Part shown: in pieces, positions 3,020 through 32,742 of the stretch
Layout: every line of letters begins with the position of its first letter
Position numbering within the stretch: the first letter of the stretch is position 1
Source: Gemmatimonadota bacterium
GTDB taxonomy: Bacteria > Gemmatimonadota > Gemmatimonadetes > Gemmatimonadales > Gemmatimonadaceae
NCBI GenBank assembly: GCA_003171215.1
Contig: PMYN01000055.1
Coordinates: forward strand, 29,564-62,506
Direction of reading: 5' to 3'
DNA length: 32,943 nucleotides
Notes under the pieces: generated by a model
Seen by the model: the letters and a program-made list of their open reading frames with translations, nothing else
Databases searched by the model: none
What the model was told of the DNA's origin: nothing
Program-made: the position numbers and the translations under genes

Positions 3020-6000
3020 TCAGGGTAGAACGATCTGGTTGGTGTCCATGGTGATGGCCGCCTTTGCCAGCGCCCTGCCGGTCAGGCTCGTGCCCGTCCC
3101 CAGTGTGATGCTCGCGGCCGCGATGATGTTGCCCCGGAACGAATTGGTGGCACCGATCGGCGCGTCGGAGCCGACCACGAAGAAGATGTTCGCGGCGGGC
3201 GCGGTGCCGGTGATCGTGGCGCCCGCGGCCGTGGTGAATGTGCTCCCGATCTTGAACACCCAGAGTCCATTGGCCGGGCCGCTGAGCGTCAGTGTGCCGG
3301 TCAACTGCGCGGTCGAGCTGAAGCAGTAGACGCCCGGCGCGAGCGGAGCCACCGTGCCGAGATCCTGACCCGTCAGGTCGGTCGTGCACGCCATGCCGGT
3401 GAGACTTACGTTCGCAATGGCAACATCGGTCTGGGCGTGAAGCGCCGTCGCGTCGTTGAGGTGGACAGTGCCATCGCCCGGAGCCGAGATGACGCACGGA
3501 GTGGGGAAGCCGGACATTGTACCAGCGGGATACACACCCACGTTTCCAGCGATGTTCGTCGTACCAACGCAGCTGCTGGCACCCGCGCCGAGCACTGCGA
3601 ACGCTGCCGCAGTACCGAGGTTGACCGTCGCCGTCGCGGTGAACGTGAGCGGGCTGCCCGTGAGTCCTAGCGCCGTGGCCGTCAGCGTGTTGGAACCTGG
3701 TATCGCTCCCAGCGTCCAGCTCCCGATGGTCGCGATGCCGCTCGCGTTCGTGGTCGCGCCGAGGCCGGTCGCCGAGCCGCCGCCGGAGGCGACCGCGAAC
3801 GTCACGCTCACACCGCTGACGGGGTTGTTGTGCACGTCCGTGATGAGGACGCTCGGCGCCGTCGCGACTGCGGTACCCGTGATCGCCGACTGATTGTCGC
3901 CGGCGTTGATCGCGATCTGCGTCGCGGCGCCGGCGATCGCCGTCGCGGTGAACGTGAGCGGGCTGCCGGCGAGCCCGGCGCTCGTCGCGGTCAAGGTGTT
4001 CGCACCTGCCGTCGTGCCGAGCGTCCAACTTCCTACGGTCGCGATGCCGCTCGCGTTCGTGGTCGCGCCGAGGCCGGTCGCCGAACCGCCGCCGGAGGCG
4101 ACCGCGAACGTCACGCTGACCCCGCTCACGGGGTTGTTGTTGATGTCCCGCACCAGCACGCTTGGCGCGATCGCCACGGCGGCGCCCGCGATCGCCGTCT
4201 GATTGTTGCCGGCGTTGATCGCGATCTGCGTCGCGGCGCCGGCGATCGCGGTCGCGGTGAACGTGAGAGGACTACCCGTGAGCCCGGTGCTCGTCGCGGT
4301 CAGCGTGTTGGCGCCCACCGTCGCTCCCAGCGTCCAGCTCCCGATGGTCGCGATGCCGCTCGCGTTCGTCACGGGCGTCGCCGCCGAGACCGAGCCGCCG
4401 CCGCTGGCGACCGCGAACGTCACGCTCACCCCGCTCACGGGGTTGTTGTTGATGTCCCGCACCAGCACGCTTGGCGCGATCGCCACGGCGGCGCCCGCGA
4501 TCGCCGTCTGACTGTTACCCGCGTTGATCGCGATCTGCGTGGCGGTGCCGGCAATCGCCGTCGCGGTGAACGTGAGCGGGCTGCCGGTGAGCCCGGCGCT
4601 CGTCGCGGTCAGGGTGTTGGCGCCCACGGCCGCTCCCAGCGTCCAGCTCCCGATGGTCGCGATGCCGCTCGCGTTCGAGGTCGCGGTGAGGCCGGTCGCC
4701 GAGCCGCCACCGGACGCGACCGCAAACGTCACGCTCACGCCGCTCACGGGGTTGTTGTTGACATCGCGCACGAGCACACTCGGCGGGGTCGCAACCGCCG
4801 TGCCCGCAGTCGCCGTCTGATTGTTGCCGGCGTTGATCGCGATCTGCGTCGCGGCGCCGGCGATCGCGGTCGCGGTGAACGTGAGAGGACTACCCGTGAG
4901 CCCGGCGCTCGTCGCGGTCAGCGTGTTGGCGCCCACCGTCGCTCCCAGCGTCCAGCTCCCGATGGTCGCGATGCCGCTCGCGTTCGTCACGGGCGTCGCC
5001 GCCGAGACCGAGCCGCCGCCGCTGGCGACCGCGAACGTCACGCTCACCCCGCTCACGGGGTTGTTGTTGATGTCCCGCACCAGCACGCTTGGCGCGATCG
5101 CCACGGCGGCGCCCGCGATCGCCGTCTGACTGTTACCCGCGTTGATCGCGATCTGCGTGGCGGTGCCGGCAATCGCCGTCGCGGTGAACGTGAGCGGGCT
5201 GCCGGTGAGCCCAGCGCTCGTCGCGGTCAGGGTGTTGGCGCCCACGGCCGCTCCCAGCGTCCAGCTCCCGATGGTCGCGATGCCGCTCGCGTTCGTCACG
5301 GGCGTCGCCGCCGAGACCGAGCCGCCGCCGCTGGCGACCGCAAAGGTCACGCTCACCCCGCTCACAGGATTGTTGTTGATGTCCCGCACCAGCACACTTG
5401 GCGCGATCGCCACAGCGGCGCCTGCGATCGCCGTCTGATTGTTGCCCGCGTTGATCGCGATCTGCGTGGCGGCGCCGGCGATCGCCGTCGCGCTGAACGT
5501 GAGCGGACTGCCGGCAAGCCCGGCGCTCGCTGCCGTCAGGGTGTTCGCGCCCACCGCCGGGCCCAGGGTCCAGCTCCCGATGGTCGCGATTCCGCTCGCG
5601 TTCGAGGTCGCGGTGAGGCCGGTCGCCGAGCCGCCACCCGAGGCGACCGCAAACGTCACGCTCACGCCGCTCACGGGGTTGTTGTTGACATCGCGCACGA
5701 GCACACTCGGCGGGGTCGCCACCGCCGTGCCCGCAGTCGCGGTCTGATTGTTGCCCGCATTGATCGCCATCTGCGTGGCCGCGCCCGTGATCGCCGTCGC
5801 GCTGAACGTGAGCGGGCTGCCGGCGAGCCCCGCACGCGTCGCGGTCAGCGTGTTGGCGCCCACGGCCGCTCCCAGCGTCCAACTCCCGACCGTCGCGATG
5901 CCGCTCGCGTTCGAGATCGCGCTGAGGGCGGTCCCCGAACCCCCGCCGCTGGCGACCGCAAAGGTCACGCTCACACCGCTCACAGGATTGTTGTTGATGT

Positions 6001-8995
6001 CCCGCACCAGCACACTTGGCGCGATCGCCACAGCGGCGCCCGCGATCGCGGTTTGATTGTTGCCCGCATTGATCGCCATCTGCGTGGCCGCGCCGGCGAT
6101 CGCCGTCGCGCTGAACGTGAGTGGACTGCCGATGAGCCCCGCACTCGTCGCGGTCAGCGTGTTGGCGCCCACGGCCGCTCCCAGCGTCCAACTCCCGACC
6201 GTCGCGATGCCGCTCGCGTTCGAGGTCGCACTCAAAGCCGTCGCCGAGCCGCCGCCCGAGGCGACCGCAAAGGTCACGCTCACGCCGCTGACGGGGTTGT
6301 TGTTGATATCGCGCACCAGCACGCTCGGCGCGGTCGCCACCGCCGTGCCCGCGATCGCGGTTTGACTGTTGCCCGCGTTGATCGCCATCTGCGTGGCCGC
6401 GCCGGCGATCGCCGTCGCGCTGAACGTGAGCGGGCTGCCGGCGAGCCCGGCGCTCGTTGCCGTCAGGGTGTTCGCACCGGGAGTGGTCCCTAGCGTCCAG
6501 CTTCCGACCGTCGCGACGCCGCTCGCATTCGTCGTCGTGCTGAGGCCGGTCGCCGAGCCGCCGCCCGAGGCGACCGCGAACGTCACGCTCGCGCCGCTCA
6601 CGGGGTTGTTGTTGACGTCCTTGATGAGCACGCTCGGCGCGGTCACCACCGCCGTGCCGGCCGCCACCGTCTGATTGTTGCCCGCGTTCACCGTCATGGT
6701 GCCAACGCCGACCGCTCCGGTCGCGGTGAACGTCACCGGGCTGCCGGCGAGCCCCGCGCTGGTCGCCGTCAGGGTGTTCACGCCCACCGCCGGGCCCAGG
6801 GTCCAACTTCCGACCGTCGCGATGCCGCTCGCGTTCGTCGTCGTGCTGAGGCCGGTCGCCGAGCCGCCGCCCGAGGCGACCGCAAACGTCACGCTCACGC
6901 CGCTCACGGGATTGTTGTTGACGTCCTTGATGAGCACGCTCGGCGCGGTCACCACCGCCGCGCCCGCGATCGCGGTTTGATTGTTGCCCGCGTTCACGCT
7001 CATGGTGCCCGCGCCGACGACCCCGGTCGCCGTGAACGTCACCGGATTGCCGGCGAGCCCGGCGCTGGTCGCCGTCAGGGTGTTCACGCCCACCGCCGGG
7101 CCCAGGGTCCAACTTCCGACCGTCGCGATACCGCTCGCATTCGTCGTCGTGCTGAGGCCGGTCGCCGAGCCGCCGCCCGAGGCGACCGCAAACGTCACGC
7201 TCACACCGCTCACGGGATTGTTGCCGGCGTCCTTGATGAGTACGCTCGGCGCGGTCGCCACCGCTGCGCCCGCGATAGCCGACTGATTGTTGCCCGCGTT
7301 GATCGCCATCTGCGTGGCCGCACCGGTGGCGACATTGACGGTCGCGAAGCCCGAGATGGCGCCGCTCGTCGCCTGCACCGTGTTCGTATACACGCCTGGC
7401 ACCGTCCCAGCGGTGAAGAGCCCGGTGCCGCTGTTGATGCTGCCGGCCGTCGAGTTCACGACCGTCCAGACCGGCACGATCGCGAGCACGTTGCCGAGTG
7501 CGTCCTTGCCGACCGCGGTGAAGGTCTGCGCACCACTGATGCTGAGATTGACCGGGTTCGGGCTCACCGTAATCGACGCCAGCGGGTTGACGGCCACGAC
7601 TACCGTCGCAGTACCGGCGAGCGAGCCACTCGTGGCCTTGATCGTATTGGTGAACGTGCCCGACGCCGCGCCGGAAGTGAAGAGCCCGGCCTGATCCACA
7701 GTTCCGCCGCCATTCACGACCGACCAGACAGGCGATATCACGAAGATATTCCCGCTCGCGTCCCGCCCTACGGCGACGAACTGTTCCGTGGAGAAGGTGG
7801 GCATGGTTACCGGATTCGGCGTAACCGTGACGGATGTCAGCGGGCCGCTGATCACGTTCACCGTCGCAAAGCCCGACACGCCACCGCTGCTCGCCCGAAT
7901 CGTATTGGTGAACGTGCCTGCCACCGAACCCGCGGTGAAGAGGCCCGTCCCGTTGATGGTTCCACCATTCGCGACGACGCTCCACGTGGGCGCAATCGCG
8001 ACGGGGTTTCCAGCGATATCGCTGCCGACTGCGGTGAACTGCTGGGCGCCGTTGATCGGAATCGTCGCCGGGTTGGGCGTGACCTTGATGGCGGCCAACG
8101 GCCCGGCGGTTACGACGACCGTTGCCGTAGCGGAGAGCGTGCCGCTCGTCGCAGTGATGGTATTGCTGAATGTTCCCGGCGCCGGGCCCGCGGTGAAGTT
8201 CCCGCTGCCGTCGATCGCGCCGCCGCCAGCCGTGACGGACCACGTCGGCACGAGTGGCACGGTGTTGCCGCCGGCATCCTTGCCGGTTGCGACGAACTGC
8301 TGCTTGCCGCCGACGATCAATGTGTCTGGGTTCGGCGTAACGATGATGGCCACCGGCGAACCGACGGTCACGGTGACGGTCGCGAATGCCGTGATTCCCT
8401 GATTGCTGGCCTCTACGGTATTGGTGAAGGTTCCAGCCGCTCCAGCGGCTGTGAACATTCCGGACGCGGAGATGGTGCCACCACCGGCCACTACAGACCA
8501 GCTCGGCGTGAACTGAACGATGTTCCCGGTGGCGTCTTTGCCTTCGGCGATGAACTGCTGAGTTCTGCCGACTGCCAGGGTGACCGGGCTCGGCACGACG
8601 GTGATGGACGCCAAGGGCCCCGGGATCACCGTGATCGATGCCTGACCCGAGATGCTCCCGACACTGGCGACTACCGTGTTGGCGAACACGCCGGGCACGT
8701 TGCCCGCCGAAAACATTCCGGTTGCGTTGATCGTGCCCCCACCGGCCACCACGGACCACGTGGGGCGGATGGAGACGACGCGTCCGTCGGCGTCGTAGCC
8801 CACGGCGACCATCTGCTGCGCGGAACCCGTGGTGAGCGTCGTGTTCGGCGTCACGATGATCGTCATCAATGTGCCGGGAGCCGTAATCCCGTGCACGTCG
8901 CACGTGGATACAATCCCGATACCGAGCGCGACCGCGAGAATCAGTCGAGCCCGCCCCAGAATCGTGTGCACTTTGGTACCGAACGTCCCCACCAT
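3020..8995 (-). CDS. Giant Ig-like repeat surface protein with C-terminal DUF3494 (ice-binding-like) domain
   Basis: This protein has about 1991 residues from the ATG at 8995; a TTG at 9013 would add six residues, and neither start has a good ribosome binding site. A basic N-terminus and hydrophobic stretch (LILAVALGIGIV) followed by STC suggest export; the cysteine context is a poor lipobox. Next come six domains of about 86 residues that look like Big_2 Ig-like modules (each with a TPNP start and TWSVVAGGG core), up to about residue 555. Twelve Ig-like repeats of about 103 residues follow (INAGNNQ...NNPVSGVSVTFAVASGGG), resembling Big_1/invasin-type modules, to about residue 1790. The last 200 residues match DUF3494/PF11999: AAFAVLGAGASS, GNVGVYPAGT, LAPGVYCFSS, LWVFKIGSTFTT, NIFFVVGSDAPIGA. 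Family knowledge says this fold is a beta-helix found in ice-binding proteins and many adhesins. Surface adhesion or ice/substrate binding is my inference. No sortase or PEP-CTERM tail is seen. Confidence 0.88.
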   Translation of the reverse strand: MVGTFGTKVHTILGRARLILAVALGIGIVSTCDVHGITAPGTLMTIIVTPNTTLTTGSAQQMVAVGYDADGRVVSIRPTWSVVAGGGTINATGMFSAGNVPGVFANTVVASVGSISGQASITVIPGPLASITVVPSPVTLAVGRTQQFIAEGKDATGNIVQFTPSWSVVAGGGTISASGMFTAAGAAGTFTNTVEASNQGITAFATVTVTVGSPVAIIVTPNPDTLIVGGKQQFVATGKDAGGNTVPLVPTWSVTAGGGAIDGSGNFTAGPAPGTFSNTITATSGTLSATATVVVTAGPLAAIKVTPNPATIPINGAQQFTAVGSDIAGNPVAIAPTWSVVANGGTINGTGLFTAGSVAGTFTNTIRASSGGVSGFATVNVISGPLTSVTVTPNPVTMPTFSTEQFVAVGRDASGNIFVISPVWSVVNGGGTVDQAGLFTSGAASGTFTNTIKATSGSLAGTATVVVAVNPLASITVSPNPVNLSISGAQTFTAVGKDALGNVLAIVPVWTVVNSTAGSINSGTGLFTAGTVPGVYTNTVQATSGAISGFATVNVATGAATQMAINAGNNQSAIAGAAVATAPSVLIKDAGNNPVSGVSVTFAVASGGGSATGLSTTTNASGIATVGSWTLGPAVGVNTLTATSAGLAGNPVTFTATGVVGAGTMSVNAGNNQTAIAGAAVVTAPSVLIKDVNNNPVSGVSVTFAVASGGGSATGLSTTTNASGIATVGSWTLGPAVGVNTLTATSAGLAGSPVTFTATGAVGVGTMTVNAGNNQTVAAGTAVVTAPSVLIKDVNNNPVSGASVTFAVASGGGSATGLSTTTNASGVATVGSWTLGTTPGANTLTATSAGLAGSPLTFSATAIAGAATQMAINAGNSQTAIAGTAVATAPSVLVRDINNNPVSGVSVTFAVASGGGSATALSATSNASGIATVGSWTLGAAVGANTLTATSAGLIGSPLTFSATAIAGAATQMAINAGNNQTAIAGAAVAIAPSVLVRDINNNPVSGVSVTFAVASGGGSGTALSAISNASGIATVGSWTLGAAVGANTLTATRAGLAGSPLTFSATAITGAATQMAINAGNNQTATAGTAVATPPSVLVRDVNNNPVSGVSVTFAVASGGGSATGLTATSNASGIATIGSWTLGPAVGANTLTAASAGLAGSPLTFSATAIAGAATQIAINAGNNQTAIAGAAVAIAPSVLVRDINNNPVSGVSVTFAVASGGGSVSAATPVTNASGIATIGSWTLGAAVGANTLTATSAGLTGSPLTFTATAIAGTATQIAINAGNSQTAIAGAAVAIAPSVLVRDINNNPVSGVSVTFAVASGGGSVSAATPVTNASGIATIGSWTLGATVGANTLTATSAGLTGSPLTFTATAIAGAATQIAINAGNNQTATAGTAVATPPSVLVRDVNNNPVSGVSVTFAVASGGGSATGLTATSNASGIATIGSWTLGAAVGANTLTATSAGLTGSPLTFTATAIAGTATQIAINAGNSQTAIAGAAVAIAPSVLVRDINNNPVSGVSVTFAVASGGGSVSAATPVTNASGIATIGSWTLGATVGANTLTATSTGLTGSPLTFTATAIAGAATQIAINAGNNQTAIAGAAVAIAPSVLVRDINNNPVSGVSVTFAVASGGGSATGLGATTNASGIATVGSWTLGTTAGANTLTATSAGLAGSPLTFTATAIAGAATQIAINAGDNQSAITGTAVATAPSVLITDVHNNPVSGVSVTFAVASGGGSATGLGATTNASGIATIGSWTLGAIPGSNTLTATALGLTGSPLTFTATATVNLGTAAAFAVLGAGASSCVGTTNIAGNVGVYPAGTMSGFPTPCVISAPGDGTVHLNDATALHAQTDVAIANVSLTGMACTTDLTGQDLGTVAPLAPGVYCFSSTAQLTGTLTLSGPANGLWVFKIGSTFTTAAGATITGTAPAANIFFVVGSDAPIGATNSFRGNIIAAASITLGTGTSLTGRALAKAAITMDTNQIVLP
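3620..7330 (-). repeat. Tandem array of twelve ~309-bp coding repeats (Ig-like modules)
   Basis: Twelve consecutive units of 309 bp (a few of 306 bp) encode the Big_1-like modules of the giant surface protein. Every unit carries NNNPVSGVSVTFAVASGGG or a close variant and ends PLTFTATA or PVTFTATG. Variation is concentrated at one short window after SGGGS (ATGLSTTTN, ATALSATSN, SVSAATPVTN, ATGLGATTN), so units fall into recurring types shuffled along the array. Unit length is always a multiple of three, so gain or loss of units keeps the frame. Confidence 0.95.
4203..5295 (-). repeat. Near-perfect direct duplication of about 475 bp at 618-bp offset inside the Ig array
   Basis: Bases 4203-4677 and 4821-5295 are almost identical. 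By eye I find two single-base differences: cccggtgctcg versus cccggcgctcg, and cccggcgctcg versus cccagcgctcg. The offset equals two 309-bp units, pointing to a recent dimer-unit duplication or gene conversion. Confidence 0.85.
7330..8880 (-). repeat. Six diverged ~258-bp coding repeats (Big_2-like modules)
   Basis: Six degenerate units encode modules of about 86 residues with the pattern V(T/V)P(N/S)P..L..G..QQF.A.G.D..GN followed by WSVV.GGGTI...G.FTAG...GTFTNT and a closing ATV.V. They are clearly homologous but much more diverged than the downstream 309-bp units, so they are the older part of the gene. Confidence 0.85.
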
Positions 8996-9149
8996 GTACC
9001 GAACCGCCCGCAAGAAGGACCGTTCCGCAGTCTAGCTCAGTTCATGCGGCCCGCGAAATAACTCAATGGGGTGAATTTCGACGGCACTGGTTCGAACAGA
9101 GTAGACAACGCGGGCATTGCTGCGCCGCTCCTCGCGCGGCACACGTCGC

Positions 9150-26982: not shown

Positions 26983-27771
26983 TCAGGCGGTGAAGTAGAG
27001 GTCGTCGGGGTAGGTGACTTGCTCGAGACACAGTCCCTGGGGCGGTGCAGGCGGAGAGACTTCGTCGTTCGCCGCCGCGACGAGGAGCGCTTCGTACTCC
27101 TCGCGCGGCCGTCGGCCACTCGCCACGTCGAGCATCGTGCCGACGAGAAAGCGCACCATGTGATGCAGAAACCGGTTCGCTTCGATGTCGAGCACCAGCC
27201 CGCCGTGTTCCGGCGAATCGCGCCAACGGCAGCACCGCACATCGCATCGGTGATCGTCCGTCGCGGGCGCCGTTCCGCGCACCGCGAATCCGAAGAACCG
27301 ATGCTGACCCATCGTCCGCTCCGCACACCATTCGAGCGCTTCGCGGCTGAGGGCCCGGTCCGCCTTTGTCCAGGCGTATTCCCACCGCCGGCGAAAAGGA
27401 GAGTGCGTTGCCTCGTCGAGCCCCACCGCGTAGCTGTAGCGACGTCCGGTCGCGCTGTAACGGGCGTGGAAGCCGGGCTTCATCTCCAACGCCCGCGCCA
27501 CCCAGACGTCGCCGGGGAGCTGGCTGTTGACCGCCCTGCGCAGCCGCTCCGCCGTCCAATGCCCGGGCACCTCGACGCCGGCCACCTGGCCGCGCGCATG
27601 CACCCCGGCATCCGTCCGTCCGGCGCCCGTGACGCGCACCGGTTCGTCACACAATCGGGAAACTGCCGCCTCGAGCACGCCTTGCACCGTTCGCTGCGCC
27701 GGTTGGACCTGCCAGCCGGCGAAGTCGCTGCCATCGTAGTGCAAAACGAGCTGCATGGTACGTCCCGCCAT
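26983..27771 (-). CDS. truA: tRNA pseudouridine(38-40) synthase
   Basis: TruA isomerises uridines 38-40 in the anticodon arm of many tRNAs. The catalytic Asp is in VTGAGRTDAGVHARGQ, and other typical segments are LVLHYDGSDFAGWQ, FHARYSATGRRYSY, HRFFGFAV and NRFLHHMVRFLVGTMLDV. The start is uncertain: ATGs at 27774, 27771 and 27756 and a GTG at 27795 are in frame and none has a clear ribosome binding site. I chose 27771 (MAGRTMQLVLHYDG, 262 residues) by the usual distance to the first conserved Tyr-Asp-Gly. It appears to be the first gene of the long minus-strand run and is divergent from the GAF-trp genes across the palindromic intergenic region. Confidence 0.95.
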   Translation of the reverse strand: MAGRTMQLVLHYDGSDFAGWQVQPAQRTVQGVLEAAVSRLCDEPVRVTGAGRTDAGVHARGQVAGVEVPGHWTAERLRRAVNSQLPGDVWVARALEMKPGFHARYSATGRRYSYAVGLDEATHSPFRRRWEYAWTKADRALSREALEWCAERTMGQHRFFGFAVRGTAPATDDHRCDVRCCRWRDSPEHGGLVLDIEANRFLHHMVRFLVGTMLDVASGRRPREEYEALLVAAANDEVSPPAPPQGLCLEQVTYPDDLYFTA

Positions 27772-27806
27772 CATGGGAAAAGTAGCCGTCCGCACGCACT
27801 ACTTCA

Positions 27807-28103
27807 AGCGATGAGAAGTGAGTACGAGAGGGAGGGATGAGTTGGAGAAAGCAGATGCGAGTTTGAGAGCGAGGGTGAGAGGGAGTCCAGCGGGAGTGGG
27901 AACTCAGTGGGAGCGGGAGCTCAGCGGGAATCCAGTGCGCGAGCAAGTCTCTACGGTCGACGCCCACTTCGCGCCCATTCCCACTGTGTTCCCACTCCCA
28001 CTTTGCTCCCACTTGGACTCATGCTCCCCGCTCGAACGCCCACTCAAACTCAGATCTGCTTTCTCCAACTCATCCCTCCGACTCGTACTCGGATCTCATC
28101 GCT
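27807..28103. repeat. 297-bp imperfect inverted repeat (large palindrome) in the divergent intergenic region
   Basis: The 415-nt gene-free stretch from 27772 to 28186 is mostly one palindrome centred near the GTCGAC at 27956-27961. The ends match exactly (AGCGATGAGA at 27807-27816, TCTCATCGCT at 28094-28103). A perfect 26-bp pairing block runs from GGAGGGATGA at 27831 to the AGAT ending at 27856, matched on the right at about 28053-28078. The inner arms pair more loosely. The left arm is purine-rich and contains a 17-bp motif AGYGGGAGYGGGARCTC in tandem (about 27889-27923); the right arm is the pyrimidine-rich counterpart. A T-rich stretch (GTTTTGTTGACTTT) follows at 28104. No target-site duplication or coding potential is seen. 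It could be a dispersed intergenic element, a structured leader RNA of the plus-strand genes, or a protein-binding site. Confidence 0.85.
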
Positions 28104-28186
28104 GTTTTGTTGACTTTGGTTGTTTCGCGTCACAACCTTCCTCTCGCGCCGTGCGCCCGTCCGGGGCCGCGCGTTCACCCGGAAAA

Positions 28187-29503
28187 ATGCCTCCACACAC
28201 GCTCGCCTCGCTCGCGCACGCTCTGAGTGCCGCGACCGATCTCGATGCGGCCTTCGTCGCGCTCTCCGAGGGCCTCGCAGAGACCGATCGCGGATCCCAC
28301 GTCGCGCTCTTCCGGCTCGACGCGAAGCGCGCCATGCTGCGCGAGCGCGCGCTCGTCGTGGACGGGGCGATCCAGCGCGTGCCGCTCGAGGCCTCGCTCG
28401 AGCAGTTCCCCAAGAACGTCGGCCGCGTCATCGCGGAGGGCAGCCTGTTCGCGGATCTCGCGGAGGAGTCTCCTGGTTTCGCGCGCATGCTCGCGATGCC
28501 GCGTGAGAGCGACGGCGGCTGGCTCTCGGTGATCGGGCTTCGCGTGGACGGGCAGCTCGCCGGCCTCCTCGCGCTGCTCGAACCCAAGCGCGTCTTCGGC
28601 ACGCGGGTCTCCGAACGGTTTTCGCCGATGGTGGCGCTGTTCGAAATGGCGTTCCTGCGTTTCGCGGAGCGCGAAGCGCGTCGCGAGGCCGTGCAGACGC
28701 TCGAGGACGTCACGCAAAAGGTGCACGGCGACTATCTCGCTCGGCTGGCGGCGACGGAGGAGCAGCTGCGCGAGGCGCGAAGCGCCGCGAAGCCCGATGC
28801 CTCCCAGACGGCCGCGCTGCTCTCGCGGGAGCGCGACGATGCGCGCGTCGCCGAGGACACCCGCCGATCGACTCGAAAGCTCGTCGTGCTCGAGCAGCAG
28901 CTCACCGCCTCGATCGGAGCGCTCGAGCAGGCTCACGTCGAACTTCACCGCCGGAGCGAAGCGCTGCGGCAGCGCACACGCACGCTCTACCTCGTCGATC
29001 GTGCGCTCACCCTTGCCGCGGCGCGCGAAGAGCCGCAGCGCCTCGCGGACGGATTGCTCGCGCTCGTCGGCGACGACATGCAGGCACACCGCTGCTCGCT
29101 TTTTCTTCGCGTGCCCGGAGATCCCAGCATTCTCTACCTCGCCGCCGGCCGCGGGCTCGCCCCGCACGTCAAGGAGGGCACGATCGTCACGGTCGGCATC
29201 GGTGTCGCGGGGAAAGTCGCCGAGTCCCGTGAACCGCTGCTGGTGATGGACGCCGGAGAGGACGCCATACCGCATCCGCTGCTCGGCGACGAGTATCTCA
29301 CGACCGGCTCGTTCATCAGTTTCCCGCTCGTGCTGCATGACGAACTGGTCGGCGTGGTGAACGTCACGAACCGCGCGCAGCATGGCCTGTTCGTCGAGGA
29401 TGACGTCGAGCGCGTGCGCCTGCTCGGCCTCGTGATCTCGCTGATCGCACGCGAGGCACAGTTGCCCGAGCGGCTGCACGTCTCGAGAATAGAACACCCG
29501 TGA
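28187..29503 (+). CDS. Double GAF-domain protein with central coiled coil
   Basis: A 438-residue soluble protein with no signal peptide. Residues about 8-150 look like a diverged GAF domain (LDAAFVALSEGLAETDRGSHVALFRLD, then WLSVIGLRVDGQLAGLLAL). Residues about 155-275 are charged and helical, likely coiled coil (REAVQTLEDVTQKVHGDYLA and LVVLEQQLTASIGALEQAH). Residues about 280-430 form a clear second GAF domain (HRCSLFLRVPGDPSILYLAA, IVTVGIGVAGKVAESREPLL, GSFISFPLVLHDELVGVVNV). No kinase, cyclase, phosphodiesterase or DNA-binding output domain is present, so it may signal through partners. The ATG at 28187 begins the recognisable fold; upstream in-frame sequence runs through the palindrome and is not protein-like. 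Its stop overlaps the GTG of trpD (GTGA), so it heads the trp run. Confidence 0.82.
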   Translation: MPPHTLASLAHALSAATDLDAAFVALSEGLAETDRGSHVALFRLDAKRAMLRERALVVDGAIQRVPLEASLEQFPKNVGRVIAEGSLFADLAEESPGFARMLAMPRESDGGWLSVIGLRVDGQLAGLLALLEPKRVFGTRVSERFSPMVALFEMAFLRFAEREARREAVQTLEDVTQKVHGDYLARLAATEEQLREARSAAKPDASQTAALLSRERDDARVAEDTRRSTRKLVVLEQQLTASIGALEQAHVELHRRSEALRQRTRTLYLVDRALTLAAAREEPQRLADGLLALVGDDMQAHRCSLFLRVPGDPSILYLAAGRGLAPHVKEGTIVTVGIGVAGKVAESREPLLVMDAGEDAIPHPLLGDEYLTTGSFISFPLVLHDELVGVVNVTNRAQHGLFVEDDVERVRLLGLVISLIAREAQLPERLHVSRIEHP

Positions 29504-30549
29504 GCGCCAAGCCCTCGACGCCGCTTCAGGCGGCGCTGCGACGGATCGCGGCCGGTGCGTCGCTGTCCGACGAGCAGGCGGCATCGGCGTTCAACGCGGT
29601 GATGGCCGGCGAGGGCACCGCCGCGCAGCTGGGCGCGCTGCTCATGGGCCTCCGCGTGAAGGGCGAGACGCCGGATGAACTCGCCGGCGCCGCGCGCGCC
29701 CTGCGCGGGGCGATGACGGTGCTCGGCACCGCCCGCCCGAGCGAACTCGTCGACACGTGCGGCACCGGCGGCGGCGCGATCACGACGTTCAACATCTCGA
29801 CCGCCGCCGCGCTGCTGGCCGCCGGCGCCGGTGTGCGCGTGGCGAAGCACGGCAATCGGTCGTACACGACGAAGTCGGGAAGCGCCGACGTGCTCGAGGC
29901 GCTCGGCGTCGCGATCGACGTGCCCGTCGAACGGATGGGCGAGGTGCTGGATCGCGCCGGCATCATCTTCATGTTCGCACCCACGATGCACCCCGCGATG
30001 CGACACGTCGGCCCGGCGCGACGCGAGATGGCGATCGAGACGCTGATGAACCTCGTCGGCCCGCTCGCGAACCCGGCGGGCGCCGGCCGCCAGGTGATCG
30101 GTGTCGCGTCACCCGGCCGGGTCGAGCTGATCGCGGGCGCGCTTCAGCGGCTCGGGACCACGCATTCGCTCATCGTGCATGGTGCACCCGGGATGGACGA
30201 GATCTCCCCAATCGGCCTTACGACGGTCATCGAGCTGCGCGGGAAGGAACTCTCGCGCTGGACGCTCGATCCGGCGCAGTACGGATTCTCGGGGATGAAC
30301 GCGGAAGAGCTGGCCGGTGGGGAGCCGTCGGAGAATGCAGCGCTGATCGAGCGCGTCCTTGCCGGTTCGGGGCCGGCCGCCGCCGAGGCAGCCGTTCTAT
30401 TGAATGCGGCGGGCGCGATCTACGTGAGCGGGCTGGCGCCGACGTACGCCGCGGCGCTGGATCGTGCGCGTGCGGCGCTGCGAAAAGGAGAGGGCAGCGC
30501 CGCGCTGGCGAGGCTTCGGGCGGCCGCGCCGCACGGCGGAGCGGGTTAG
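29500..30549 (+). CDS. trpD: Anthranilate phosphoribosyltransferase
   Basis: TrpD transfers the phosphoribosyl group of PRPP to anthranilate, the second step of tryptophan synthesis. The 349-residue length is usual. Motifs: ELVDTCGTGGGAITTFNIST (PRPP/Mg binding), VAKHGNRSYTTKSGSADVLE (usually KHGNRAxSSxSGSADVLE; here Tyr-Thr-Thr replaces the usual residues) and AMRHVGPARREMAIETLMNL. The GTG start overlaps the GAF gene stop by 4 nt. The stop overlaps the stop of the convergent lexA by 4 nt (30546-30549), so there is no room for a terminator between them. Confidence 0.97.
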   Translation: MSAKPSTPLQAALRRIAAGASLSDEQAASAFNAVMAGEGTAAQLGALLMGLRVKGETPDELAGAARALRGAMTVLGTARPSELVDTCGTGGGAITTFNISTAAALLAAGAGVRVAKHGNRSYTTKSGSADVLEALGVAIDVPVERMGEVLDRAGIIFMFAPTMHPAMRHVGPARREMAIETLMNLVGPLANPAGAGRQVIGVASPGRVELIAGALQRLGTTHSLIVHGAPGMDEISPIGLTTVIELRGKELSRWTLDPAQYGFSGMNAEELAGGEPSENAALIERVLAGSGPAAAEAAVLLNAAGAIYVSGLAPTYAAALDRARAALRKGEGSAALARLRAAAPHGGAG

Positions 30550-31154
30550 TAGCGGCGGAGCACTCCCACCACGATGCCCTGTACGCGCATCTGGTTTTCC
30601 TGCACGTAGATCGGCTGCAGCTGGTCGTTCGACGGCTGAAGGCGGATGCGGCCATCTCGCTCGCGATAGAAGCGCTTGACCGTCGCCGAATCGCCGTCGA
30701 GCATCGCGATGACCATGTCGCCGTTGTCGGCGGCCTGACGATCGTGCACCACGACGAAATCGCCGTCGCTGATGTGGTCCTCGATCATCGAGTTGCCGCG
30801 GACTTTGAGCACGTAGTGATTGCCCGCCCGGCGAACGAAATCCTGCGGCACCGCGACCGTTTCACCCACCGCGACTTCTTCGATCGGCACACCGGCAGCG
30901 ACCGCACCGAGCAAGGGAAGCTCGACCGCCTGCGGCGTCACATCCGAAACGAGGATCTCGATCGCGCGGCTCTCGTTGTAGCTGCGCTTGATGTATCCCT
31001 TTCGCTCCAGGTTGCTCAGGTGTTCGTGGACCGTCGCCAGAGAGTTATAGTTGAACTGTTCGGCGATCTCCTCGAAGCTCGGGGCGTAGCCATGGACCGA
31101 ACCGTAGCTTGTGAGGTAGTCGAGGATCTGGCGCTGGCGCTTGGTGAGCGGCAT
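30546..31154 (-). CDS. lexA: LexA SOS repressor
   Basis: LexA represses DNA-damage genes and self-cleaves when RecA filaments form. The 202-residue protein has an N-terminal winged helix-turn-helix (LTKRQRQILDYLTSYGSVHG, then SLATVHEHLSNLERKGYIKR). The C-terminal peptidase domain has cleavage site Ala87-Gly88 (GAVAAGVP), nucleophile Ser122 (VRGNSMIEDHI) and general base Lys160 (SATVKRFYRE). The recognition helix is closer to the Gram-positive SLATVHEHL type than to the E. coli one. AGGGA lies seven bases before the ATG. The gene is inserted antisense between trpD and trpC; its promoter region contains two GAAC-N7-GAAG sites that may be its own operators. Confidence 0.97.
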   Translation of the reverse strand: MPLTKRQRQILDYLTSYGSVHGYAPSFEEIAEQFNYNSLATVHEHLSNLERKGYIKRSYNESRAIEILVSDVTPQAVELPLLGAVAAGVPIEEVAVGETVAVPQDFVRRAGNHYVLKVRGNSMIEDHISDGDFVVVHDRQAADNGDMVIAMLDGDSATVKRFYRERDGRIRLQPSNDQLQPIYVQENQMRVQGIVVGVLRRY

Positions 31155-31234
31155 GACGTCGTCCCTGCAATGGGAGTGAACGAACGGCAGTAACTCCGTC
31201 CGGTGCGAGAGCTTGTCTGCGTCAGATGACGCCC

Positions 31235-31249
31235 GAACAACACCCGAAG
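31235..31249. promoter_or_regulatory. Candidate LexA operator 1 (GAAC-N7-GAAG)
   Basis: GAACAACACCCGAAG lies 80 bases before the lexA start. On the lexA strand it reads CTTC-N7-GTTC, one base from the direct-repeat LexA box GTTC-N7-GTTC known from alphaproteobacteria. A second copy with a different spacer lies 26 bp away. Binding by this LexA is an inference. Confidence 0.5.
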
Positions 31250-31260
31250 TAACGGTACCC

Positions 31261-31275
31261 GAACATTGTCCGAAG
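31261..31275. promoter_or_regulatory. Candidate LexA operator 2 (GAAC-N7-GAAG), covering the trpC start codon
   Basis: GAACATTGTCCGAAG repeats the same GAAC-N7-GAAG arrangement as the site at 31235, with a mostly different spacer, 26 bp (about two and a half helical turns) further from lexA. It includes the TTG start codon of trpC at 31266-31268. Conservation of both half-sites and the seven-base gap, with change in the spacer, is what a binding site would show. Confidence 0.5.
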
Positions 31276-32105
31276 CGCAAGACACGACAGCGGTCACCAG
31301 CACGTGGACATTTCCGCAGGGACCGCTGGGGGAACTCACAGCGGCTGCGGAGCGGCGCGCGCAAGCGCTGGCCGAAGGCGCGGCCGACCTCGAGCGGGCG
31401 GCTCGGGCGGCGGGCCCCGTACCGTCGTTTGCCGCCGCACTCCGGGGCGACACCGTGGCCGTGATCGCCGAGCTCAAGCGGCGCAGTCCGAGCAAAGGAG
31501 CAATCAACGAGTCGCTCGACGTCGCTGCGCGCGCGGTCGAATACGCGGCGGCGGGCGCGGCGGCGCTTTCCGTCCTGACCGAACCCGCGCGGTTCGGCGG
31601 CTCGCTGGATGATCTGCGGGCGGTCCGTTCCGTCGCGCGCGTGCCGCTGCTCCGGAAGGACTTCATCGTGAGCCGGCTTCAGCTCCTCGAGGCCCTGGCC
31701 GCCGGCGCGTCCGCGGTGCTGCTGATCGCTCGTGCGCTGCCGCCCGAACGCCGAACGGCGCTGGCGAATGAGGCGCGGGCGCTCGGCCTCGACGTGCTGC
31801 TCGAAGTGCGTGACGAGGGCGAGCTGGAGCACGCGCTTCGGGTCGAGCACGCGGTGATCGGCATCAACAACCGGAATCTCGAGACGCTCGCAATCGACGA
31901 TGCGGTCAGCGCGCGCCTGCTGCCGCTCGTGCCCGGCAACCGCACCGCGGTGTACGAGAGCGGCGTGAACACCCGCGCGGATGTCGAGCGGGCGGCGGCA
32001 ATCGGTGCGGACGCGGTGCTCGTCGGATCGTCGCTCTCGACATCGGAGGACGGCGGCGCCGCGACGGCAGCGCTGGTCGGCGTCCCAAGGCGGACGCGTG
32101 GCTAG
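31266..32105 (+). CDS. trpC: Indole-3-glycerol-phosphate synthase
   Basis: TrpC closes the indole ring, converting CdRP to indole-3-glycerol phosphate. The 279-residue protein shows TVAVIAELKRRSPSKGAINE (phosphate/catalytic region), VPLLRKDFIVSRLQLLEA, VIGINNRNLETL and TAVYESGVNTRADVERA. TTG at 31266 is the only usable start after the in-frame stop at 31227 and before the conserved region. It lacks a Shine-Dalgarno sequence and lies inside a possible LexA operator, so initiation is unusual; a leaderless mRNA is one possibility. The gene follows lexA head-to-head (111 nt) and overlaps trpF by 8 nt. Confidence 0.95.
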   Translation: MSEAQDTTAVTSTWTFPQGPLGELTAAAERRAQALAEGAADLERAARAAGPVPSFAAALRGDTVAVIAELKRRSPSKGAINESLDVAARAVEYAAAGAAALSVLTEPARFGGSLDDLRAVRSVARVPLLRKDFIVSRLQLLEALAAGASAVLLIARALPPERRTALANEARALGLDVLLEVRDEGELEHALRVEHAVIGINNRNLETLAIDDAVSARLLPLVPGNRTAVYESGVNTRADVERAAAIGADAVLVGSSLSTSEDGGAATAALVGVPRRTRG

Positions 32106-32742
32106 CGTCAAGTTCTGCGGGCTCACACGCTCCGAGGATGCCCGCGAGGCGATGCGGCTGGGCGCCGCGTACGTCGGCGCGATATTCGCAGGCGGGCCGA
32201 GGAACGTCACGCCCGAACGGGCGCGCGAGCTGTACGATGCCGCCGCCGGCGGGCCGGCCGCAGTCGGCGTCTTCGGCGCGGATGACGTGGATGCGATCGC
32301 GGCGAACGCTATCACAGCCGGCGTGGAAGTGATTCAATTACACGGCGACCCTCGGGCCGCCGACGTGCGGGCGATGCGCAGGCGCTTCGGCGGTCGCATC
32401 TGGGCCGTGGCCCGGGCCGACGGCTCGGTGCTTCCGGAGTGGACCGAAGAACTCTTTCACGAGGCCGATGCGGTGCTGCTCGACGCGCGCGTGCAGGGCA
32501 GGCTCGGCGGCACGGGGATCGCGCTCGAATGGAGTGCCCTCGCAGACTCCGTCGCTGCGCTTCGGGGCCGCACACCGGTTGTTCTCGCTGGGGGGCTGAA
32601 GCCGGAGAATGTGGCGGAGGCGGTGCGCCTGCTCGCGCCCGATGTGGTGGATGTTTCGTCCGGCGTGGAGTCGTCGCCGGGGATCAAGGATCACGTAAAA
32701 ATGCGCGCGTTCTTCGACGCCGCCGGGGGGAACACGCGGTGA
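32098..32742 (+). CDS. trpF: Phosphoribosylanthranilate isomerase
   Basis: TrpF isomerises phosphoribosylanthranilate to CdRP, the step between TrpD and TrpC. The 214-residue protein starts VASVKFCGLTRSEDA, giving the conserved KxCGLTR with its catalytic Cys. GVEVIQLHGD, TPVVLAGGLKPENVAEAV and DVVDVSSGVESSPGIKDHVK are family-typical; the last holds the second catalytic Asp and the phosphate-binding loop. GTG at 32098 was chosen because it places this N-terminus correctly and overlaps trpC by 8 nt. The stop overlaps trpB (GTGA). Confidence 0.96.
   Translation: MASVKFCGLTRSEDAREAMRLGAAYVGAIFAGGPRNVTPERARELYDAAAGGPAAVGVFGADDVDAIAANAITAGVEVIQLHGDPRAADVRAMRRRFGGRIWAVARADGSVLPEWTEELFHEADAVLLDARVQGRLGGTGIALEWSALADSVAALRGRTPVVLAGGLKPENVAEAVRLLAPDVVDVSSGVESSPGIKDHVKMRAFFDAAGGNTR

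Follow-up and report, generated by a model that had tools for sequence, protein, structure and literature searches.

A 297-bp palindrome between truA and a GAF-domain gene

The window analyzed here, a stretch of 32,943 nucleotides from the Gemmatimonadota genome that we designate G000, contains a 297-bp imperfect palindrome between the truA gene and a gene encoding a GAF-domain protein. A repeat scan resolved the palindrome into two nested pairs of arms. The features of the locus are listed below, where S23 refers to the S23p/IVP protein family (PF05635).

26983-27756, minus strand: truA (tRNA pseudouridine synthase), flanking gene, from the ORF list
27779-27807, minus strand: promoter-like boxes of truA, TTGAAG-17-TACTTT, conserved by eye in an eight-genome alignment but not flagged by a consensus scan
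27807-28103, unstranded: the palindrome, very probably an ORF-less member of a family of S23-gene hairpin elements (repeat scan, folds, family matches, absence in relatives)
27807-27883, unstranded: outer left arm, purine-rich, 77 nt, 82% complementary to 28027-28103
27878-27928, unstranded: inner left arm, with a tandem 17-bp motif at 27892-27925 (repeat scan)
27929-27962, unstranded: loop region separating the inner arms, in which an S23 ORF is absent in this copy (repeat scan, ORF list)
27963-28013, unstranded: inner right arm, 51 nt, 76% complementary to 27878-27928 (repeat scan)
28027-28103, unstranded: outer right arm, pyrimidine-rich, pairing with 27807-27883
28110-28138, plus strand: promoter-like boxes of the GAF gene, TTGACT-17-CAACCT, conserved by eye in the same alignment but not flagged by the consensus scan
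28187-29503, plus strand: GAF-domain protein gene, flanking gene

The original prediction of a near-palindrome was confirmed. Folded as RNA, the element reached -191.1 kcal/mol, compared to -110.9 ± 5.2 kcal/mol for shuffled sequences (z = -15.4; 0/100 as good), and folding as DNA gave z = -14.3 with none of 100 shuffles equal. The exact 10-bp ends and the perfect 26-bp block described previously are both present in the pairing string, the outer arms differ in purine and pyrimidine content as had been stated, and the tandem GGGA-rich motif was borne out with 14/17 identical positions (e.g., 27892-27908 and 27909-27925). The strongest lag within the element is 17, and identity at lag 7 is 0.28; the arms thus lack a 7-bp period. 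The palindrome occupies approximately 70% of the truA-GAF intergenic space, rather than almost the whole of it. An open frame (27818-29503) crosses the palindrome, but the GAF protein of element-free relatives aligns from the ATG equivalent to that at 28187. No Rfam match and no rRNA match was detected anywhere in the window.

The two flanking genes are divergent: truA is encoded on the minus strand, and the GAF gene, like the neighboring glycosyltransferase-family-3 (trpD-like) gene, on the plus strand. Judged by eye, truA more likely starts from an in-frame ATG at 27769-27771. When eight genomes of the genus are aligned, the sequence near truA and near the GAF gene is conserved with or without the element, with slight variation in the boxes, and the boundary of the element falls on the first T of TTGAAG. 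Since a promoter and terminator consensus scan flagged neither pair of boxes, their identification rests on conservation by eye; the same scan found no terminator-like site. The palindrome lies between the promoter-like boxes of both genes and is therefore probably outside both transcripts. Hence it does not form the leader of GAF-trpD that had been proposed, given that the genes diverge and the element is upstream of both sets of boxes. The T-rich stretch described after the palindrome contains the TTGACT box (28110-28115), which element-free relatives also retain.

We compared the site among eleven genomes, namely the window and ten plus-strand truA loci. Seven minus-strand loci of the 17 truA loci were left out (L121, L125, L127, L133, L134, L135, and L137), the window standing for L121, and G013 and G015 had no GAF match upstream. 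Only G000 and G010 carry the element; the nine other genomes with a readable site lack it. If the element acted in the GAF-trpD leader as a structured regulatory RNA or an attenuator, this would account for the very stable RNA fold. Against such a function stand the divergence of the genes, the position of the element outside both conserved boxes, its absence from 9/11 genomes, the lack of a terminator-like site or Rfam match, and the lack of any G-U over A-C bias in the arms of the S23 elements described below. An attenuator or leader RNA, which would sit in the transcribed leader and be conserved with its gene, disagrees with both the position of the element and its absence in relatives, and we regard this explanation as highly improbable.

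The G000 and G010 copies are 96.6% identical when one of them is inverted, but only 59.9% identical (ungapped) in the syntenic sense, and their flanks are collinear. The outer arms of the G010 element are identical, pairing perfectly over 50 bp. Unless one of the draft assemblies is wrong, the element has been turned round between the two genomes and its arms therefore recombine. Such arm-arm recombination would provide a DNA-level reason for lasting palindromy, and the resulting homogenization of the arms would mimic covariation. The palindrome might instead stem from a single inverted duplication or from faulty assembly, as the assemblies are drafts and the inversion could be an error in one of them. 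However, the same 297 bp occur with collinear flanks in a second assembly (97%) and relatives occur at many other places, leaving this account with a negligible probability.

At the truA-GAF site of G014 (L124, upstream of truA), an apparent half-palindrome of another family was seen by eye. Different palindrome families likewise occupy the same intergenic place across genomes at a second site (E7 below; L325-L328), as if some intergenic places were possible hot spots for palindromes.

A dispersed family and its insertion sites

The search for further copies that had been suggested was run on the DNA of 61 genomes. It revealed a dispersed family with matches in six genomes, all of the genus of the window, which belongs to the Gemmatimonadaceae. 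By our own grouping, copies occupy approximately eight places in G010, 11 in G014, and five in G002, with weak matches in G016 and G017; in G000, the truA-GAF element is the one full copy, accompanied by two weak matches. Most of the copies fetched are self-palindromes of approximately 200-350 bp, while in a few loci the arms stand apart. The proposal of a dispersed Gemmatimonadota-type intergenic element, or a non-autonomous mobile element, is thus supported by multiple copies within the genus and by empty sites in relatives.

Several features were observed around these copies. Two lone arms of the family face each other 8 kb apart in G014 (L046 151-257 and 8225-8331, contig C26; 88.8% alike). 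Unrelated palindrome families (110-170 bp) lie near family copies (L045 1914-2025 and 5660-5769; L046 5540-5704; L052 1659-1800; L035 676-826), and several of them resemble, by eye, the arms of other S23 genes. Contig ends or N runs adjoin S23 elements or palindromes (L063, L168 near 2409, L175 near 18501), so draft assemblies probably undercount them.

To examine insertion, the joined flanks of seven G000 elements (E1-E7) were searched in four relatives, and empty sites were found for E1, E2, and E5. At E2, G000 and G010 carry the insert, which is bordered at either end by AG (a possible 2-bp duplication), and G014 and G002 have an empty site. Both G014 and G002 also have an empty or almost empty E1 site. 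The E5 site has three alleles, with the ORF in G002 (L115), as a palindrome lacking the ORF in both G000 and G010, and empty in G014; this can also be read as in-place loss of the gene, without movement in trans. E4 is filled or partly filled in all three genomes in which both flanks matched, E7 differs among genomes without a clean empty site, and only one flank matched for E3 and E6. The pattern at the truA-GAF site (two present, nine absent), together with E1, E2, and E5, indicates insertion of members of the S23/IVP-gene hairpin family.

S23 genes enclosed by inverted arms

Three split elements of the truA-GAF family (L049, L039, and L057) each carry one ORF, 145-155 codons long, between their arms. 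These ORFs match PF05635, '23S rRNA-intervening sequence protein' (S23p), with E-values of 4.9e-13, 6.9e-14, and 1e-10, all three matches passing the cut-off, and also match TIGR02436, 'four helix bundle protein'. By sequence comparison, the encoded proteins match the solved structures 2gsc (XCC0516; 3e-5) and 2rld (0.003). Of the options originally offered, a dispersed or mobile element is supported and a regulatory RNA or attenuator is not; the S23/IVP gene of the family had not been seen.

We then asked whether S23 genes generally lie between inverted arms. The genus contains 57 PF05635 matches in 14 of its 18 genomes. A strand-corrected comparison of the 700-bp flanks of each gene recovered an inverted repeat of at least 40 bits around 45/57, compared to 1/360 mismatched flank pairs of the same genomes; in a random-core control on one G014 contig, 1/600 showed an inverted repeat. 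The remaining 12 genes, some of them at contig edges, lack a 40-bit repeat and count against the explanation proposed below. The S23 elements of the genus have a median arm of 77 bp, span of 690 bp, and enclosed stretch of 511 bp. Arm similarity tracks S23 protein similarity (rho = 0.40; 0/1000 permutations), a correlation that common descent alone could give. The position of some of the genes is stable: four genomes have one next to an accD-like gene and two have one next to a tpiA-like gene, the neighbors being judged by eye. With arm mismatches read in the sense of the ORF, G-U and A-C types number 114 and 98 in the genus, 33 and 32 in the phylum, and 63 and 71 elsewhere. An RNA-strand signature was thus not found in the arms, G-U mismatches showing no excess over A-C.

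This arrangement extends beyond the genus. PF05635 is present in 82 of 150 genomes of the phylum Gemmatimonadota, where an inverted repeat of at least 40 bits surrounds 16/28 loci compared to 6/756 mismatched pairs. Among named loci, nearly all of other phyla, 40/80 reach at least 35 bits compared to 19/480 mismatched pairs and the other half fall below; these are the best 80 of 555 confirmed loci, with phylum labels assigned by us from record titles, and their mismatched flank pairs share words more often than those of the genus. On viral contigs, 21/29 S23 loci have an inverted repeat at the 35-bit level compared to 11/174 mismatched pairs, a set that includes near-identical copies (L204-L206; L207, L209, L210, and L229; L222-L223). 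On cyanobacterial plasmids, with 12 of the 40 listed plasmid matches taken, the corresponding values are 9/12 and 7/72. By a crude motif check, the S23 elements read here are not within 23S rRNA genes. Some of the plasmid genes lie between CRISPR genes, in the orders cas10 / S23 / cmr3 and cas6 / S23 / cas4:

L316, 1483-1839: S23/IVP gene amid plasmid CRISPR genes
L320, 1489-1848: S23/IVP gene amid plasmid CRISPR genes
L323, 1483-1851: S23/IVP gene amid plasmid CRISPR genes

Most S23 arms are arrays of 7-bp words, with period 7 the best in 31/45 arms of the genus, 15/21 of the phylum, and 53/73 elsewhere. The truA-GAF element does not have such arms, and for this reason we did not use 7-bp words as a defining feature. 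A heptamer pattern derived from S23 arms gave hundreds of overlapping matches in 3/8 genomes, though in one of these three, G179, the reversed control also gave 112.

We further surveyed long palindromes regardless of family in 366,513 bp of G014 and 410,607 bp of G000, the latter counting approximately 11 kb twice where stretches of contig C50 overlap the window (approximately 400 kb without overlaps). The resulting census of 33 palindromes leaves out the S23 elements themselves and palindromes below approximately 70 bp. Twenty-seven of the 33 match an arm of an S23 gene at E ≤ 1e-4 (G014, 12/13; G000, 15/20), compared to 6/1000 random 150-bp windows, a control drawn from the G014 contig only and shorter than some of the palindromes. 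The six that match no S23 arm count against the reading of these palindromes as S23 elements. In G014, the best-matching arm belongs to an S23 gene of the same genome for 10 of the 12; in G000, 14 of the 15 have an arm from their own genome among the matches listed, the exception being the truA-GAF copy. The arm of one S23 gene in the genome of the window (C98) has at least 83 matches at 39 places, of which 30 are in -/+ order (one being the gene itself), none in +/- order, and nine single.

The truA-GAF element itself matches the library of S23 arms at G014_C25 (1e-17), G002_C96 (2e-15), and G016_C23 (7e-8). This homology to arms that enclose PF05635 genes places it in the S23/IVP-gene hairpin family proposed here. 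Its match to an S23 arm of its own genome is weak (downstream arm of C79; E = 6e-4), which counts against this assignment; the C79 S23 protein is 72% identical to that of the matching S23 gene of G002.

It may be asked whether any protein is needed. DNA-level processes (template switching, recombination and conversion between arms, and slippage of short words) might by themselves disperse the hairpins and maintain their palindromy, with S23 genes as passengers kept inside them. The inversion between G000 and G010 and the 50-bp identical outer arms in G010 point to arm recombination, unless an assembly is wrong, and the arms are made of slippage-prone short words. Yet such processes leave unexplained why one protein family occurs in hairpins of this kind across many genera and phyla, why the arm of each S23 gene is the dispersed one, and why insertions are precise; we consider them unlikely to suffice. 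Alternatively, an ordinary DNA transposase encoded elsewhere could move the hairpins as a conventional MITE family or as REP-like repeats, with the S23 gene as cargo. The inverted ends, the empty sites, and the possible AG duplication at E2 would fit. However, the Y1 transposase (PF01797), the only one searched for and in draft genomes, occurred in 0/18 genomes of the genus compared to 5/14 controls, the median enclosed stretch of 511 bp leaves little room beyond the S23 gene, and each arm family is paired with an S23 gene of its own. Within this Y1-limited search, we consider a separate transposase improbable. What the ORF-bearing relatives of the truA-GAF element carry is an S23 gene, and this is the only protein candidate carried by the elements.

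Proposed explanation and relation to known systems

Taken as a whole, the best explanation, and in our judgment the probable one, is that the truA-GAF palindrome belongs to the S23-gene hairpin family as a copy lacking the ORF and that it inserted between two divergent genes in the G000/G010 lineage. An ORF-bearing element comprises one gene for an S23p/IVP four-helix bundle (PF05635, TIGR02436) between two long inverted arms, and ORF-less copies are arms of the same kind closed on a short loop and scattered over the genome. S23p may recognize the hairpin that its own arms form, most likely in DNA, whether single-stranded or cruciform, and, judging from the pattern of copies and the REPIN-RAYT precedent, may promote the copying of that hairpin into new sites; if it does, the ORF-less copies are non-autonomous, served by S23p as REPINs are thought to be by RAYT proteins. 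The chemistry would then have to come from host enzymes or from an unrecognized activity of S23p. We know of no catalytic activity of S23p, and this counts against movement driven by the protein. Descent of the palindrome from an S23 element is very likely, and mobilization in trans by S23p is put forward tentatively.

The nearest parallel in layout is the REPIN-RAYT system, in which REPs of 20-40 bp accompany RAYT, a Y1 transposase thought to serve the repeats that flank it (PMC3116915, PMC3733652, PMC8266576). In both systems, hairpins are scattered outside genes, and copies of the repeat flank a protein gene that is distinct in each case, holds a stable place (in some cases here), and encodes a product thought to serve the repeats. 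In contrast, S23 elements carry an S23/IVP four-helix bundle and not a Y1 transposase, and the hairpins here are approximately 85-420 bp (297 bp with 77- and 51-nt arms for the truA-GAF element) compared to REPs of 20-40 bp. A RAYT partner was sought and not found, with PF01797 in 0/18 genomes of the genus and 5/14 controls positive.

The gene content is that of the intervening sequences of 23S rRNA, where an S23p gene sits in a hairpin loop and ORF-less forms exist, where the Coxiella sequence has tandem heptamers beside the S23p gene, and for which mobility has long been suspected but is described as a hypothesis only (PMC4990558, in the sections available). The S23p gene in a hairpin loop and the ORF-less forms are shared with the elements described here, whereas the truA-GAF element lies between truA and the GAF gene and the S23 elements are dispersed between genes. 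Thus S23p-ORF hairpins inside 23S rRNA are already known, as is the same gene-in-repeats layout in REPIN-RAYT systems. In the accessible portions of the open-licence literature, we found no published link of S23p proteins with palindromes or heptamer arrays outside rRNA.

Two further systems share part of this picture. Intergenic heptamer arrays have been described in Xanthomonas, Nostoc, and Beggiatoaceae, including 70 and 75 cases as inverted pairs in Xanthomonas (PMC4692102, PMC4679880); the terms 'S23' and 'four helix' are absent from the main text of both papers as available to us. These are arrays of 7-bp words between genes, like most S23 arms and unlike those of the truA-GAF element, and X. 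campestris also has an S23 protein (XCC0516, the protein of structure 2gsc). In diversity-generating retroelements, Avd, a protein needed for retrohoming, is reported to be resembled by PF05635 (PMC10053308), and retrohoming needs a DNA hairpin or cruciform in which the structure of the stem matters and not its sequence (PMC3240598), according to the portions of both papers available. The likeness lies in the Avd-related protein and the DNA structure needed for homing, and the difference in the lack of a reverse transcriptase in G000, G002, G010, and G014. PF00078 was detected in 1/18 genomes of the genus, G017 only, and a search for a reverse-transcriptase partner found none in the palindrome-rich genomes.

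A broader and more speculative possibility, to which we give less weight than to mobilization in trans, is that mobile hairpin DNA defined by S23p/IVP proteins forms a widespread class of its own, for which no transposase or reverse transcriptase is known. An Avd-related protein would recognize hairpins built of its own arm words and drive their copying, ORF-less hairpins would be non-autonomous, and the 23S rRNA intervening sequences, the inverted heptamer arrays of Xanthomonas and Nostoc, and the palindromes of Gemmatimonadaceae would be local forms. The gene-in-hairpin layout, seen in several phyla, may tie together bacterial repeats that lack an explanation. S23p/IVP genes are common, and their link to dispersed palindromes offers a role that can be tested, with their own arms as natural substrates; it could also explain abundant intergenic hairpins in several phyla. 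If S23p does move hairpins, this would be DNA movement without a recognized transposase, on an Avd-related fold.

Two other parts of the window deserve mention. A 589-residue frame at 30549-32315 (minus strand) has its LexA domains, one DNA-binding and one S24 peptidase, confined to residues 389-583, and the true start of this gene probably lies well within the frame. A 1997-codon frame on the minus strand (3020-9013) is faced by plus-strand frames of approximately 100 codons (3894-7286) at steps of approximately 309 bp, which suggests that the large protein contains tandem repeats of approximately 103 residues.
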